A stretch of 64,000 nt of DNA, from NCBI RefSeq assembly GCF_002005165.1, contig NZ_CP019699.1, positions 1,240,001 through 1,304,000 on the forward strand, given 5' to 3'. Positions 21,166-46,068 of the stretch are shown in pieces. Position numbers and translations under genes: made by a program. Source of the DNA: Novibacillus thermophilus. GTDB lineage: Bacteria; Bacillota; Bacilli; Thermoactinomycetales; Novibacillaceae. The number at the start of each line of letters is the position of its first letter. Positions within the stretch are counted from its first letter, which is position 1. Under the pieces are notes generated by a model. It was not told the origin of the DNA and did not search any database. It was given only the letters and a program-made list of their open reading frames with translations.

Positions 21166-21304
21166 CATTTCAAGCCGACTGTTAAGAGTAATGCCGCCAC
21201 ATTCGTCTCACAAGTTGAAGTTCCTTAAAACGGCATTCGATGACGGTTGTGTCATCTGGCACGTTTGATTGAGCGGAACGACGTTGTTGCAAGGAGGTTC
21301 TGCC

Positions 21305-23646
21305 GTGCCCGGTTTAGCACTGGCCACTCTCTCACCTTTTGCGATCGCTGTCACGACGCCCTGGGTGAACCGGCGATTTCGCTTTGTACATACCGGATGG
21401 TTCTTGCTTATCCTTCCGGCAGTGCTCTTTGGCTATTTTGCCTGTTTTCTGCCGCAAGTATGGCGTTTTGAAACGGTCACGCAACAAGTGAGTTGGATGC
21501 CGTCTCTCGGAATCAATTGGACGCTGTACTTGGACGGCTTGTCACTCCTCTTTGCTCTGCTCATTACCGGTATTGGGTTTCTCGTCGTCCTCTATTCCGT
21601 TTATTACTTGGCAAAGGACGAACCGCTGCATTACTTTTACGTCTATTTGCTCATCTTTATGGGCTCGATGTTGGGGGTCGTCCTCTCCGACAACTTGCTC
21701 GTGATGTACGTGTTTTGGGAATTGACGAGCATCTCCTCCTTCCTCCTCATCGGTTACTGGTACCACCGTAAACAGTCCCAGTACGGTGCCCAAAAATCGA
21801 TGCTGATCACCATCGCCGGCGGTTTTGCCATGCTGGCGGGCATTGTCCTCACCCATTCGGTGACGGGAACCTTCAGCGTGAGAGAAACGCTCCAACAGGC
21901 TGATGCCGTGCTCAGTTCTCCGTATTATGGGGCCATCTTGTCGTTGTTTTTGATTGGCGCATTTTCGAAGTCGGCTCAATTTCCCTTCTACATTTGGCTT
22001 CCCGATGCGATGGAAGCCCCGACACCCGTCAGTGCGTACTTGCATTCGGCCACCATGGTTAAAGCCGGCGTTTATCTCATGGCCCGCTTGACGCCCGTAT
22101 TGGGAGACACAAAACAGTGGTTCTGGTCCGTGACAGGCGTCGGTCTGTTCACCATGTTCTGGGCGGCGTTTATGGCAATTCGCCAGACAGATTTGAAAAG
22201 AATATTGGCTTTTTCCACTGTCAGCCAACTCGGGTTGATGATCGCCCTTCTCGGGTACGGGACAGAACTAGCCATTTTGGCGGCGGTATTCCACCTGTTG
22301 AACCATGCCACGTTTAAGGGGAGCTTGTTTATGGTCGCCGGTATTGTGGACCACGAAACGGGGACGCGGGACATCCGTCGTCTGGGGGATTGTACGCGCT
22401 GATGCCGGTGACGGCAGCTCTTGCGTTTATCGGTACTTTTGCCATGGCTGGCGTACCGCCGACAAACGGTTTCCTCAGTAAAGAAATGTTTTTCCAGGCG
22501 TCCGTCAACATGACGGAAGAGGTGTCGTGGCAACTGGTCTTTCCCATTGTCGCGTTTTTGGGCAGCATTTTCACCTTTATTTACTCCATGATGTTGTCGT
22601 TTCACGTGTTTACCGGGCAAGCCCAGTTGGAGAAACTGGAAAAGAAGCCGCACGAAGCGCCCTTAGGGATGTTGATACCCCCCGTCACGTTGGCCGTCAT
22701 GATCGTCGCCGTCGGGTTGTGTCCCGGCTTGGTGGCTAACAGTATTCTGGCACCCGTCGTGGAGGCGATTGTCCCCGGGTCGGAACCCGTTGTACACATC
22801 AGCCATTGGCACGGATTGAACTGGCCGCTGTTTATGACGATCGGAGTGTTGGGGATCGGGTTTGTCATGTTTCGCTCTCTCTCCCGTTGGCAGGCGGTCT
22901 ACAGAGCCTTTCCACCAATATTGTCCCTTAACAGTTTTTACGACAGTTGGCTTGACGGGTCGGAAAGGGTGCCCCGACAGGTGATGAACTGGCACATGAC
23001 AGGTTCCTTGCGCGATTACCTCGTGTACATGTTGACGTTTATAGTGCTTTTCGTCGGATACGTTTTCTTTGAGCAAAACGCCTTTTCCCTCATTCCGGAA
23101 AAGGCATCGCCCGTCAGCACGTACGAACTGTTATTGGCGTTGACGATGATAGCCGCTGCCCTTTACATTGCCGTGAGCGGCCACCGGATCAGGGCCATTC
23201 TCGCCCTTGGAGCCGTCGGTTTTATCGTCGCTCTGTTCTTCGTCAATTTCCGAGCGCCGGATTTAGCCCTCACCCAGCTTGTCATTGAAACGGTGACGAC
23301 GGTGCTGTTTTTGCTCTGTTTTTATCACTTGCCCCGATTGAAGCGCGAACGAAAGAAACGGCGTACCGCCGTCAGTCATCTGATCGTGTCCGTTGCGGTG
23401 GGTATTCTGGTGACGGCGTTGGCGTTGTCGTCTTTCAGCTCGAAACTGTTCGAGCCTATTTCAAGCTACTACGTGCAAAACTCTTATGAAGAGGCAGGCG
23501 GTTACAACGTGGTGAACGTCATTCTCGTGGATTTCCGGGGGACGGATACGATGCTGGAAATTTTAGTGCTCGGCATTGCCGGACTCGCTGTGTACGGGCT
23601 GGTAAAACTGCGTTTAACGGGGGGCGATGTCAATGAAAACAAATGA
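21305..23646 (+). pseudogene. mrpA: mrpA, Na+/H+ antiporter subunit A, interrupted by a one-base frameshift
   Basis: The largest Mrp subunit is a multi-helix protein related to NuoL in its first part (GAFSKSAQFPFYIWLPDAME, then VSAYLHSATMVKAGVYL), with an MrpB-like domain at the C-terminus. The frame starting at GTG 21305 (after AAGGAGG) ends at 22402 just after HETGTRDIRRLG. The expected continuation GLYALMPVTAALAF, then GVPPTNGFLSKE, is in the next frame to 23646. Adding one G to the run of five at 22384-22388 restores one protein of ~780 residues, the normal MrpA length. It may be a real mutation, slippage site or sequencing error; all other mrp genes are intact. Confidence 0.9.
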
Positions 23647-24055
23647 CCTCATCTTACAGACGGTTACGAAGGTCGTCTTGTTTATCATTCTCGTCTTTGC
23701 CGTCTTTATCTTAAATGCCGGTCACCATTCCCCAGGGGGCGGCTTTGTCGGGGGATTGTTGACGACCTCTGCTTTCGTGCTCCTGTCCCTCGCTTTCGGG
23801 ATGGAAACGGTCCAAAAGGCCGTTCCCGTCAATTTCCGTCATGTGATGGCCCTCGGCCTGTCGATCGCCTTTCTGTGCGGCATCGGTGCAACGGTACTTC
23901 AATACCCGTTTTTAACCCATGCTTTCGGGTATGTTCACCTGCCGCTTTTGGGCGAGACCGAACTCACGACGGCGCTCATTTTTGACATCGGCGTGTACTT
24001 GACTGTGACAGGTGCCACGATGACGGCGATACTCACAATTGGGGAGGACCGGTAA
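23627..24055 (+). CDS. mrpB: Na+/H+ antiporter subunit MrpB
   Basis: A 142-residue membrane protein with four helices and the conserved HHSPGGGFVGGLLTTSAFVL segment of MrpB/MnhB. It overlaps the end of mrpA by 20 bases (ATG 23627, with another ATG at 23633 better spaced from the GGGG tract). It is part of the hetero-oligomeric Mrp complex, which exchanges cytoplasmic sodium for protons. Confidence 0.93.
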   Translation: MSMKTNDLILQTVTKVVLFIILVFAVFILNAGHHSPGGGFVGGLLTTSAFVLLSLAFGMETVQKAVPVNFRHVMALGLSIAFLCGIGATVLQYPFLTHAFGYVHLPLLGETELTTALIFDIGVYLTVTGATMTAILTIGEDR

Positions 24056-24056
24056 C

Positions 24057-24395
24057 ATGGAATGGGTCATGTCTGTTGCCGCAGGAGTTTTGTTCGCTGT
24101 CGCGACGTATTTGATACTGTCCAAAAGCGTCTTGCGCGTTGTTCTCGGTTTATCGCTTATCTCTCACGGAGCTCACATTCTCTTGCTCACCATGGGCGGC
24201 TTAAAAAGGGGAGCTTCTCCTGTGCTCGACCAGGAATCGGCCGTTTATACAGATCCGCTGCCTCAAGCTCTCATCTTGACCGCCATCGTCATCAACTTCG
24301 GGGTAACCGCTGTGCTCCTCGTCCTCGCTTACCGCTCTTATCGAGCGCTTCAAACAGACGACTTGGAACAGTTTAAGGAGACACAGGATGAATAA
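24057..24395 (+). CDS. mrpC: Na+/H+ antiporter subunit MrpC
   Basis: A 112-residue, three-helix NuoK-like protein. It shows LGLSLISHGAHILLLTMG and DPLPQALILTAIVINFGVTA, the signature of MrpC/MnhC. The ATG at 24057 has GGGGAGG 9 bases upstream. It follows mrpB by one base and overlaps mrpD by 8. Confidence 0.93.
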   Translation: MEWVMSVAAGVLFAVATYLILSKSVLRVVLGLSLISHGAHILLLTMGGLKRGASPVLDQESAVYTDPLPQALILTAIVINFGVTAVLLVLAYRSYRALQTDDLEQFKETQDE

Positions 24396-25872
24396 CGTTA
24401 TTGTCTTTCCGGTCATTGTACCGCTTTTAACTGGCATATTACTCATTTTTTTGAAGGAGCGCGTCGGCGTACAGCGTGTCCTGAGTGCAGCCGGGTTATT
24501 TTTGAGCACAGGGATTGCGCTGTTTTTAGTCCGGCAAGTACCAGCAGAAGGGATTCAAACTTTGGCCGCGGGAAACTGGCCGGCACCGTTTGGCATCGTG
24601 TTTGTCGCCGACATGTTTGCCGTCCTGTTAATCCTCACCACGCACCTCGTCGGATTGGCCTGTCTCTTTTTCTCGTTTCGGGGGATAGGGGAAGGGCGCG
24701 AGCGACATTATTACTATCCGCTCTTTTTGTTTCTCGTCGGAGGCGTGTGCGGAGCTTTTTTAACGGGTGACGCGTTTAACTTGTTTGTCTTTTTTGAAGT
24801 CCTCTTGATCGCGTCGTACGCGTTAATCGCGTTGGGCGGAACGCGGCGGCAATTGCGGGAATCCCTTAAGTATGTCGTCGTCAATGTCGTCTCATCGACG
24901 CTGTTTCTGATTTCACTCGGCTTTTTGTACGCCGTGACTGGAACGCTCAACATGGCAGATTTGTCCGTGAAGGTCGCTGATAGCGGCCAGCCAGGCGTCC
25001 TCACGGCGTTGAGCGTCTTGTTTTTGGTGGTCTTTGCCATTAAAGCTGCGCTTTTTCCCCTTTACTTTTGGTTGCCGGACTCGTACGCCGCACCGCCGAC
25101 GCCAGTCGCCGCCCTGTTTGCCGGATTGTTGACCAAAGTGGGGGTTTACGCCATTTTTCGTTTCTTCACCCTTATATTTGTAAACGACACGCCCTTTACC
25201 CACACGATGATCCTCATATTTGCTGCGGTCACGATGGTCATCGGGGTTATCGGGGCCGTCGGTTCGGAAAATGTGAAGCACATATTAGCTTACAACGTCA
25301 TTAGCGCCGTCGGTCTCATACTCACGGGTTTAGGATTTTACAACGACGCGGGCGTCACCGGGGCTGTTTTGTACCTCGTACACGACATGATCATTAAAGC
25401 GTGCCTGTTTTTGTTGGGCGGTGTCATCGTGGGAATCGCAGGTACGGAGAAACTGGCGCATATGGGGGGATTGATCAAAAAGCATCCCCAGCTCGGCTGG
25501 TTGTTCTTCACTGCCGCCATGTCGTTGGCCGGTATTCCGCCGTTGAGCGGATTTGTCGGGAAGGTGCTGCTCCTCCAGGGAGGGATTCAAGCTTCGTCTT
25601 ACTGGGTGGTCGGTTTATCCCTCCTGGTGAGTTTACTCATTTTGTTTTCTGTCATGCGCATTTTTATATACGGGGTCTGGGGAGAGGAGCGGTTCCCCGC
25701 CGGAAAAAAAATGAGGGGAGACGGTGCGCTGCTTGCGCCCGCTGCCTTTTTGGTAGTGTTGTCCGTTGCCATCGGATTAGGGGCAGAAGGGGTTTATCCT
25801 TACATATCGCTGGCGGGAGAGCAGTTGATGGACCCGTCCCTATACATTGAGTCCGTAAATGTGAAGGAGTAG
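24388..25872 (+). CDS. mrpD: Na+/H+ antiporter subunit MrpD
   Basis: A 494-residue, NuoN-like protein with about 14 helices. Conserved proton-path segments include FFEVLLIASYALIALGG, the lysine helix VFAIKAALFPLYFWLPDSYA, and the HDMIIKACLFLLGGVI helix. With MrpA it forms the core transport module of the antiporter. Spacing to both neighbours is an overlap or zero, as expected for the operon. Confidence 0.94.
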   Translation: MNNVIVFPVIVPLLTGILLIFLKERVGVQRVLSAAGLFLSTGIALFLVRQVPAEGIQTLAAGNWPAPFGIVFVADMFAVLLILTTHLVGLACLFFSFRGIGEGRERHYYYPLFLFLVGGVCGAFLTGDAFNLFVFFEVLLIASYALIALGGTRRQLRESLKYVVVNVVSSTLFLISLGFLYAVTGTLNMADLSVKVADSGQPGVLTALSVLFLVVFAIKAALFPLYFWLPDSYAAPPTPVAALFAGLLTKVGVYAIFRFFTLIFVNDTPFTHTMILIFAAVTMVIGVIGAVGSENVKHILAYNVISAVGLILTGLGFYNDAGVTGAVLYLVHDMIIKACLFLLGGVIVGIAGTEKLAHMGGLIKKHPQLGWLFFTAAMSLAGIPPLSGFVGKVLLLQGGIQASSYWVVGLSLLVSLLILFSVMRIFIYGVWGEERFPAGKKMRGDGALLAPAAFLVVLSVAIGLGAEGVYPYISLAGEQLMDPSLYIESVNVKE

Positions 25873-26355
25873 ATGACAGTGGCAATGCAAGTGTTGGTGA
25901 ACCTCATACTGGCCTTCGTCTGGGCGTTTCTGAATAACGACTTGACTCCGGTGACATTTGCTGTCGGGTATGTGCTCGGGTTTGTGTTACTGTTCCTCCT
26001 GCGGCGTTTTCTTCCAGCGCCGTTTTACGGCAGGCGCATTGTGGCCCTCGTCGTGCTGATCGGTATTTTTTTGAAAGAGTTGATTCTGTCTAACATCGAT
26101 GTCATCAAACACGTGGCGAAACCGCAACAAGCTTTTACACCTGGAATTGTCGCTCTCCCGATCCATCTGCGTTCCCCGCGGGAAATTACGACCCTCGCCA
26201 ATCTAATATCGTTGACACCGGGAACGTTGAGCGTCGACGTATCCGTGGACAACTCGACTCTGTACATTCACGTGCTGGATATTTCCGCAGCGGAAGAAGT
26301 AAGTGACGACATCAAAAATACGTTTGAGAAACGGATTCGGGAGGTGACTCGATGA
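25873..26355 (+). CDS. mrpE: Na+/H+ antiporter subunit MrpE
   Basis: A 160-residue protein with two to three N-terminal helices and a soluble C-terminal part containing SLTPGTLSVDVSVDNSTLYIHVLD, the typical MrpE tail. AAGGAG lies 3 bases before ATG 25873 and 9 before GTG 25879, so the latter, or ATG 25885, may be the true start. It overlaps mrpF by 4 bases. Confidence 0.92.
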   Translation: MTVAMQVLVNLILAFVWAFLNNDLTPVTFAVGYVLGFVLLFLLRRFLPAPFYGRRIVALVVLIGIFLKELILSNIDVIKHVAKPQQAFTPGIVALPIHLRSPREITTLANLISLTPGTLSVDVSVDNSTLYIHVLDISAAEEVSDDIKNTFEKRIREVTR

Positions 26356-26621
26356 TCGACATCGTGTGTACAGTCAGTTTGAGTGCCTTGGCCGTCTCGA
26401 TTGCCGGATGTACGTACCGCGTCTTAGTCGGCCCCACCTTGCCCGATCGGGTCGTGTCCCTCGACACCATCGGCGTCAACTTGATCGGGGTCATTGGCAT
26501 TTTATCGATTAAGCTGGATTCGCTCACGTATTTAGACGCCATTCTGGTCATTGCCATATTGTCGTTTATTGCGACGGTTGCCTTCTCCAAGTTTTTGATA
26601 AAGGGTGTTATCGTTGATTGA
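26352..26621 (+). CDS. mrpF: Na+/H+ antiporter subunit MrpF
   Basis: An 89-residue, three-helix protein with the family motif RVLVGPTLPDRVVSLDTIG and the acidic YLDAILVIAILSF helix. It is a small structural subunit of the Mrp complex, sixth in the seven-gene operon. Confidence 0.93.
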   Translation: MIDIVCTVSLSALAVSIAGCTYRVLVGPTLPDRVVSLDTIGVNLIGVIGILSIKLDSLTYLDAILVIAILSFIATVAFSKFLIKGVIVD

Positions 26622-26967
26622 CCTGATCGTTAGCGGCCTTATTGTCGTCGGTGTGGTGTTCACTTTTTTCGGAACGGTTGGACTGCTCCGGTTTCCCGAC
26701 ATATACACCCGCATGCACGCTGTCACCAAAAGCTCGACTTTGGGGATCATGTGTATTCTACTCGGCTGTATGACCTACTTCATGGCCGAGCACGGTGTCG
26801 TCAGTGTAAAACTGCTGCTCGGGATTGTTTTTCTCTTCCTGACCGCCCCGGTTGGCGCGCACATGATTTCCCGCGCCGCCTACCGCACAGGCGTTCCCTT
26901 GTGGGAGCACAGTGTACAAGACGACTTAGCTGACGATGGAAAAAGGGGCCCGCGACTAACAGAATAA
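26605..26967 (+). CDS. mrpG: Na+/H+ antiporter subunit MrpG
   Basis: A ~117-residue, three-helix protein with GLLRFPDIYTRMHAVTKSSTLG and TAPVGAHMISRAAYRTGVPL, diagnostic of MrpG/MnhG. It overlaps mrpF. GTG 26605 and TTG 26614 are both possible starts; the latter is better spaced from AAAGGGTG. It ends the mrp operon. Confidence 0.93.
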   Translation: MLSLIDLIVSGLIVVGVVFTFFGTVGLLRFPDIYTRMHAVTKSSTLGIMCILLGCMTYFMAEHGVVSVKLLLGIVFLFLTAPVGAHMISRAAYRTGVPLWEHSVQDDLADDGKRGPRLTE

Positions 26968-44695: not shown

Positions 44696-45700
44696 ATGCA
44701 TGCGGAACAGTGCGCCGTCATCATACTGGCTTTGAACCCTCCCATTCACTTGATCGATTACGTCAAAACTTTACAGGGTAAAGGGACTGCCCGCATTGTG
44801 GTGGTCAATGACGGCAGCAGGGCGGCATGTGGGGACGTATTTAAGGAAATAAGCAGCTATAACGGTTGTACCGTGTTGACGCACCAAACGAACAAGGGGA
44901 AAGGAAGGGCGCTCAAAACGGGCTTCGCCTACTGTTTGGAACAGTTCGATGACGTATTAGGTGTCATTACGGCAGACGCTGACGGACAGCACGCGGCAGA
45001 AGATGTCGGAAAAGTCACCGAGGCTTTGACAACTCACGACGGCATTGTCCTGGGAGTGAGGGATTTCAGTGAACCTCACGTGCCGGTGAAGAGCTACATC
45101 GGAAACAGAATGACCCGTTCCATATTCCAGCTCCTGTCCGGTCAGAAATTAAAGGACACACAGACAGGGTTGAGGGGCATTTCCATCAAGGAACTGCCGT
45201 GGATGCTCAAACTGAAAGGCGAGCGGTACGAATACGAAATGAACATGTTAATTCACGCCATCAGGACAAATGTAGAAATCGTTGAAGTTCCGATACAAAC
45301 ACTGTATTTCAACGGTAACAGCGAATCCCACTATAGGGCGGTACGGGACTCTCTCAAGATTTTGAAACAGCTCCTATTCGGATCGGCCAAGTCGGTCCAT
45401 CTGGGCGATCACGATTGGCCAGGACCGTTTTCCCGCGCTACACGGTTCACATTCCAGACGACATTGAGGGAGAGGGGCCTTTTGTGTACGTTTCCCACCA
45501 CCAAAATCTCTTTGGCCCTTTTGTCACGTTGCTGTGGTTCCCGTACAGCCTCCATGCATGGGTTCTGCACGTTTTCCTCGATCAAACAACGTGTTATCGA
45601 CACTACGTCGAGTACACCTTCACGCGAAGGTTCGGCTGGCATAAATCGTGGGCCAAAATGTGGGCTTGGCCGCTGTCGCACGTCGTTTCAAAACTTTTGA
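44696..45700 (+). CDS. Family 2 glycosyltransferase with aberrant C-terminal tail
   Basis: Residues 1-~235 are a GT2 (dolichyl-phosphate mannosyltransferase-like) domain: VVVNDGS, TADADGQH (DxD region), SYIGNRMTRSIFQLLSGQ, DTQTGLRG, ERYEYEMNMLIHA and VPIQTLYFNGNSESHY. The last ~96 residues are Ser/Arg/Thr-rich and coincide with another frame that encodes an acyltransferase, so they look like out-of-frame read-through. A frameshift near 45360-45415 that removed the natural stop, or fused two domains, is the likely cause. The acceptor is unknown. Confidence 0.8.
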   Translation: MHAEQCAVIILALNPPIHLIDYVKTLQGKGTARIVVVNDGSRAACGDVFKEISSYNGCTVLTHQTNKGKGRALKTGFAYCLEQFDDVLGVITADADGQHAAEDVGKVTEALTTHDGIVLGVRDFSEPHVPVKSYIGNRMTRSIFQLLSGQKLKDTQTGLRGISIKELPWMLKLKGERYEYEMNMLIHAIRTNVEIVEVPIQTLYFNGNSESHYRAVRDSLKILKQLLFGSAKSVHLGDHDWPGPFSRATRFTFQTTLRERGLLCTFPTTKISLALLSRCCGSRTASMHGFCTFSSIKQRVIDTTSSTPSREGSAGINRGPKCGLGRCRTSFQNF

Positions 45701-46068
45701 ACTCCGGAAGGAGTATCCCGGTGTTCAGAGGTTCCCGAAAAATCCAGCACACGTTAGACCTCAGTGTCGCAGCGTTGTGCAGAGGAGAGAGTATCATCAT
45801 TTTTCCAGATATTGACTACCGCGACAACGCCGCCGACACAAAAGCGATGTACGACGGCTTTCTCTATTTGGAGAAATACTACGACCGAGAGACCGGGCGG
45901 CACCTTCGTTTCGTCCCGCTGTTTGCCAGCAAGAAAAAGCGCTTGCTCATCGCCGACCGGCCGGTCACTTTCAGGGACGGAGTACCGTTTCGGACAGAAA
46001 GGCGAGTCGTGCGCGACACCATTCACGCCCATCTCAACAAATGGGCCCAGTCGTGCGGAGATGTATGA
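45415..46068 (+). CDS. Divergent PlsC-like acyltransferase
   Basis: A ~217-residue soluble or membrane-associated protein. It has the order of a glycerolipid acyltransferase: VSHHQNLFGPF where PlsC has NHxSxxD, SIPVFRGSRKIQ, and IIIFPDIDYRD where PlsC has FPEGTRS. The motif I Asp is replaced by Gly. No start with a ribosome-binding site was found; TTG 45415 is the first possible initiator, inside the glycosyltransferase frame. It could be a separate coupled gene or the second half of a fused GT2-acyltransferase. A glycolipid-modifying role is only inference. Confidence 0.65.
   Translation: MARTVFPRYTVHIPDDIEGEGPFVYVSHHQNLFGPFVTLLWFPYSLHAWVLHVFLDQTTCYRHYVEYTFTRRFGWHKSWAKMWAWPLSHVVSKLLNSGRSIPVFRGSRKIQHTLDLSVAALCRGESIIIFPDIDYRDNAADTKAMYDGFLYLEKYYDRETGRHLRFVPLFASKKKRLLIADRPVTFRDGVPFRTERRVVRDTIHAHLNKWAQSCGDV

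Follow-up and report, generated by a model that had tools for sequence, protein, structure and literature searches.

The closest known systems to the gene considered here are the A subunits of Mrp (CPA3) Na+/H+ antiporters represented by PDB 7qru, 6z16 and 7d3u (chain A of each). When its two reading frames are joined, the junction-spanning MrpA of Novibacillus thermophilus aligned to 7qru chain A (Mrp/CPA3 subunit A) along its whole length (query 4-774, E 1e-255) and to 6z16 chain A over query 1-772, and the sole difference from known Mrp subunit A is a frame break in the deposited DNA. Breaks of this form also have a described technical counterpart: in the long-read bacterial assemblies examined in one study, most deletion errors fall after four to five identical bases (PMC12007338).

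The mrp operon and its apparently interrupted first gene

Within the window—the whole stretch of 64,000 nucleotides that was analysed—a complete mrpABCDEFG operon occupies 21305-26967 on the plus strand, with its genes in the usual A to G order and the first of them in two pieces:

21305..22402, plus strand: mrpA, N-terminal piece; NF009285 (Na+/H+ antiporter subunit A) profile 3-376/804, PF00361 profile 1-236
22384..22388, plus strand: run of five G at the frame break, read from the sequence; probable one-base under-call
22387..23646, plus strand: mrpA, C-terminal piece in the shifted frame; NF009285 376-800/804, PF00361 237-286, MbhD, MbhE
23627..24055, plus strand: mrpB, intact; PF04039, NF009223 3-141
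24057..24395, plus strand: mrpC, intact; NF006372 1-111/113
24388..25872, plus strand: mrpD, intact; NF005818 2-493/496
25873..26355, plus strand: mrpE, intact; PF01899, NF009292 2-158/158
26352..26621, plus strand: mrpF, intact; NF009248 1-89/94
26605..26967, plus strand: mrpG, intact, putative start codon; NF009314 6-109/116

Translation of mrpA starts at a GTG codon (21305) preceded by the Shine-Dalgarno sequence AAGGAGG at 21291-21297. The upstream frame runs through ...GTRDIRRLG and then reads DCTR before an apparent stop (TGA, 22400-22402), and the frame in which homology continues, ...GGLYALMPVTAALAF..., extends to 23646. Read across the break, the protein becomes ...GTRDIRRLG|GLYALMPVTAAL..., which is gapless at the junction against eight MrpA proteins of related genomes. 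The two matches to NF009285 are consecutive along its 804 positions, and, since PF00361 positions 1-236 fall in the first piece and 237-286 in the second, no residue is missing. An HMM of coding potential, trained on the genome itself, changed frame at 22390. Taken together, the pieces carry the domain order Proton_antipo_N, Proton_antipo_M, MbhD, MbhE, and only with both does the MrpA model match at full length, the deposited frame alone giving a split match. Judged from these sequence comparisons, the homology across the split is far beyond what chance would produce.

The first-pass annotation had placed a split at the five G of 22384-22388, had proposed that the two frames join exactly, and had described the other mrp genes as intact; all three points hold, the first through the agreement of reading frames, NF009285, PF00361 and the HMM switch, the second through the gapless alignment to the eight relatives with no residue lost, and the third through single full-length or near-full-length family matches for each of mrpB to mrpG. 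By the same family-profile matches, no further lesion or decay was seen in the operon beyond the mrpA break. No second mrpA was found in this genome; three further antiporter-like proteins at G000:C1:3473404-3477701 apparently belong to the NuoL/M/N cluster of complex I.

Frameshifts across the genome

We compared 864 kb of this genome, window included, with 1.6 Mb of one relative from the same family, counting a frameshift where one protein of the relative carries on in another frame of this genome; a break is countable only if a recognisable protein piece lies on both sides. Across 208,866 aligned bases, homology supported 19 frameshifts, or 9.1 per 100 kb; this rate is a rough estimate, since the test covered just those genes that align to the relative. 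One base was too few in all 19. Runs of at least four G or C, mostly four to seven long, lay in 17 of the 19 frameshift intervals compared with 21% of random intervals, whereas A/T runs were not enriched (21% vs 39% of random intervals). The reverse comparison, of the relative's DNA with proteins of this genome, gave eight events of mixed sign (five plus, three minus) in 226,764 bases, and a number of these are antisense shadows. On these counts, breaks that lack one base at a short G/C run occur in this genome at many times their frequency in the relative, although a minority of the 19 frameshifts may be real. Single-base deletions concentrated at short homopolymers are common to this genome and to the described long-read errors (PMC12007338); enrichment here is at G/C runs, with none at A/T.

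Two other yardsticks were less telling. The G/C homopolymer spectrum showed a mild deficit of long runs relative to the same-family genome (ratio of runs of six to runs of five, 0.165 vs 0.200), which is too weak to stand alone, and ABC-transporter domains, a multi-copy yardstick with about 100 copies, included one clear split, a result consistent with the pattern but less informative than the genome-to-genome comparison. A split ABC-transporter ATPase domain in two overlapping frames, at G000:C1:2136711-2137135, is likely an artefact of the same kind.

The genes broken by one-base-short frameshifts include gyrB, guaB, clpX, pnp, carB (twice), purA, hisS, trpE, trpD and spoIID. Positions within the individual loci are as follows:

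L135 3786-3825: gyrB break, one base short, short G/C run
L135 12906-12954: guaB break, one base short, short G/C run
L120 19425-19449: hisS break, one base short, short G/C run
L122 5740 and 6039: two carB breaks, one base short, short G/C run
L154 5020: purA break, one base short, short G/C run
L140 11546-11606: clpX break, one base short, short G/C run
L151 2324-2351: pnp break, one base short, short G/C run

In searches of the whole genome, the sole gyrB match was split at profile positions 1-289 and 275-639, and the single hisS match above the curated cut-off was split at 1-282 and 273-405; a weaker hisS-family match below the cut-off is probably HisZ. Neither gyrase subunit B nor histidyl-tRNA synthetase is dispensable for bacterial growth. 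The breaks in gyrB and hisS therefore cannot be real, because a bacterium null for either would not have grown to be sequenced.

Competing explanations for the mrpA break

Two readings of the break can be set against 88 related mrpA loci (the window's own species was left out of the genome-contig scan; a scan of viral contigs gave no independent copy of the locus). Separate MbhD/MbhE-type subunits are known in related complexes, and both PF13244 and PF20501 were matched in the C-terminal piece, as might be expected if the two pieces were naturally separate genes, with an MbhD/MbhE-like part standing apart from the rest of MrpA. The break falls instead inside the antiporter domain PF00361 (between profile positions 236 and 237 of 294), with the MbhD boundary some 250 residues further on, and in 87 of the 88 related loci a single fused gene crosses the junction: 85 have the site motif inside one open frame longer than 740 residues, and two without the exact motif are likewise continuous (804-805 residues). 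In the remaining locus, from Mesobacillus boroniphilus, the frame stays open across the junction and mrpA is shortened upstream. A natural two-gene boundary at this point was found in 0 of 88 loci, and we reject this reading, which the orthologues contradict and to which we attach next to no probability. A slippage site, transcriptional or ribosomal, yielding both truncated and full-length MrpA would account for a run of five G exactly at the junction and for the overlap of the two frames. Yet in the 86 related loci in which these codons were measured, G runs reach at most two or three (one in a single locus), so that none of the 86 carries a slippery run of more than three G, and shuffled versions of the 77 nt downstream fold equally well (z = -0.04), giving no sign of a stimulatory RNA structure. 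Five G is also short for efficient transcriptional slippage, the window alone contains 73 G/C runs of exactly five, and breaks of this type occur genome-wide. With a run that is not conserved and no downstream structure above chance, slippage at mrpA was rejected as very improbable.

Most weight, with a probability of about 0.94, goes to a sequencing or assembly artefact in which one base is missing from the consensus in a short G run, the gene being otherwise ordinary and probably functional. The break in mrpA fits the genome-wide pattern, lacking one base at a G run in a gene with no other fault, and our confidence in an artefact follows from how many times more often such breaks occur here than in the relative. 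On this reading, the consensus would under-call one G within the run of five, as one of the recurrent errors suggested by the genome-wide pattern in what was presumably a long-read assembly with insufficient polishing. The cell would then produce MrpA at its full length, about 780 residues, to serve as subunit A in a normal Mrp (CPA3) Na+/H+ antiporter. Counting against an artefact, the run in mrpA is just five long, but the other breaks lie at runs of similar length. Mostly, the probability left over belongs to a true recent inactivation, in which a real one-base deletion in the sequenced strain would have made the Mrp complex non-functional, for example under a relaxed need for Na+ or alkali tolerance in laboratory culture. 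Deletions in G runs are a common natural mutation too, the genome has no second mrpA, and the gene could belong to a minority of real frameshifts; we nevertheless consider inactivation unlikely, given that the same class of event in essential single-copy genes makes the prior for error far higher, that the operon carries no other lesion, and that the same-family genome has fewer such events, of mixed sign. That the short G/C runs are correct in the DNA, and that slippage at stretches of just a few G or C lets the organism restore the reading frames of many genes, among them gyrB and hisS, strikes us as scarcely credible.

The first-pass annotation had left sequencing error, recent inactivation and slippage side by side and had suggested a comparison with orthologues, in which no separate genes appear at the junction in the 88 related loci. 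Among its options, sequencing error draws strong support from the recurrent one-base-short breaks, those in gyrB and hisS among them, and slippage loses from the unconserved run and the lack of RNA structure. Our verdict is that the mrpA split is not a real feature of the organism and that the biological readings, inactivation and slippage, are unsupported.

Gene absences called from this assembly

Assembled as one contig of 3.63 Mb, the genome is listed as 100% complete, and its apparent frameshifts probably number a few hundred. With about nine such breaks in every 100 kb of coding DNA that could be compared, absence and pseudogene calls made from this assembly are unreliable. Two sporulation genes are a case in point:

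G000:C1:3469047-3470068 (L134): spoIID, frame-split; profile 4-319 and 310-337, at a run of five G
G000:C1:2744075-2744916 (L239/L240): spoIIIAA, frame-split; profile 1-73 and 52-271, runs of four G in the overlap

A 2021 survey reported orthologues of SpoIIIAA and SpoIID, precisely the pair split here, as undetected in Novibacillus thermophilus SG-1, which it called a non-spore former (PMC7924749); this strain is probably the source of the genome analysed here, whose accession, CP019699, is cited elsewhere (PMC11206425). Because both genes are present here, with their splits at or close to G runs of four to five, their reported absence is probably an assembly artefact too, and the published conclusion that the organism does not form spores may rest on assembly errors (PMC7924749). 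The split in mrpA has no biological import of its own; its value is as a caution that the assembly should be re-polished before claims of pseudogenes or gene loss are made from it.

Elsewhere in the window, the remaining frame switches mostly resemble ordinary adjacent or overlapping genes. At 44696-46065, a glycosyltransferase-2 open reading frame (44696-45697) is overlapped by one without family matches (45415-46065), and coding potential changes frame near 45437, where there is no G/C run of at least four right at the switch and the nearest GGGG lies at 45474; the region may hold one more frameshift, or else two genes that overlap.
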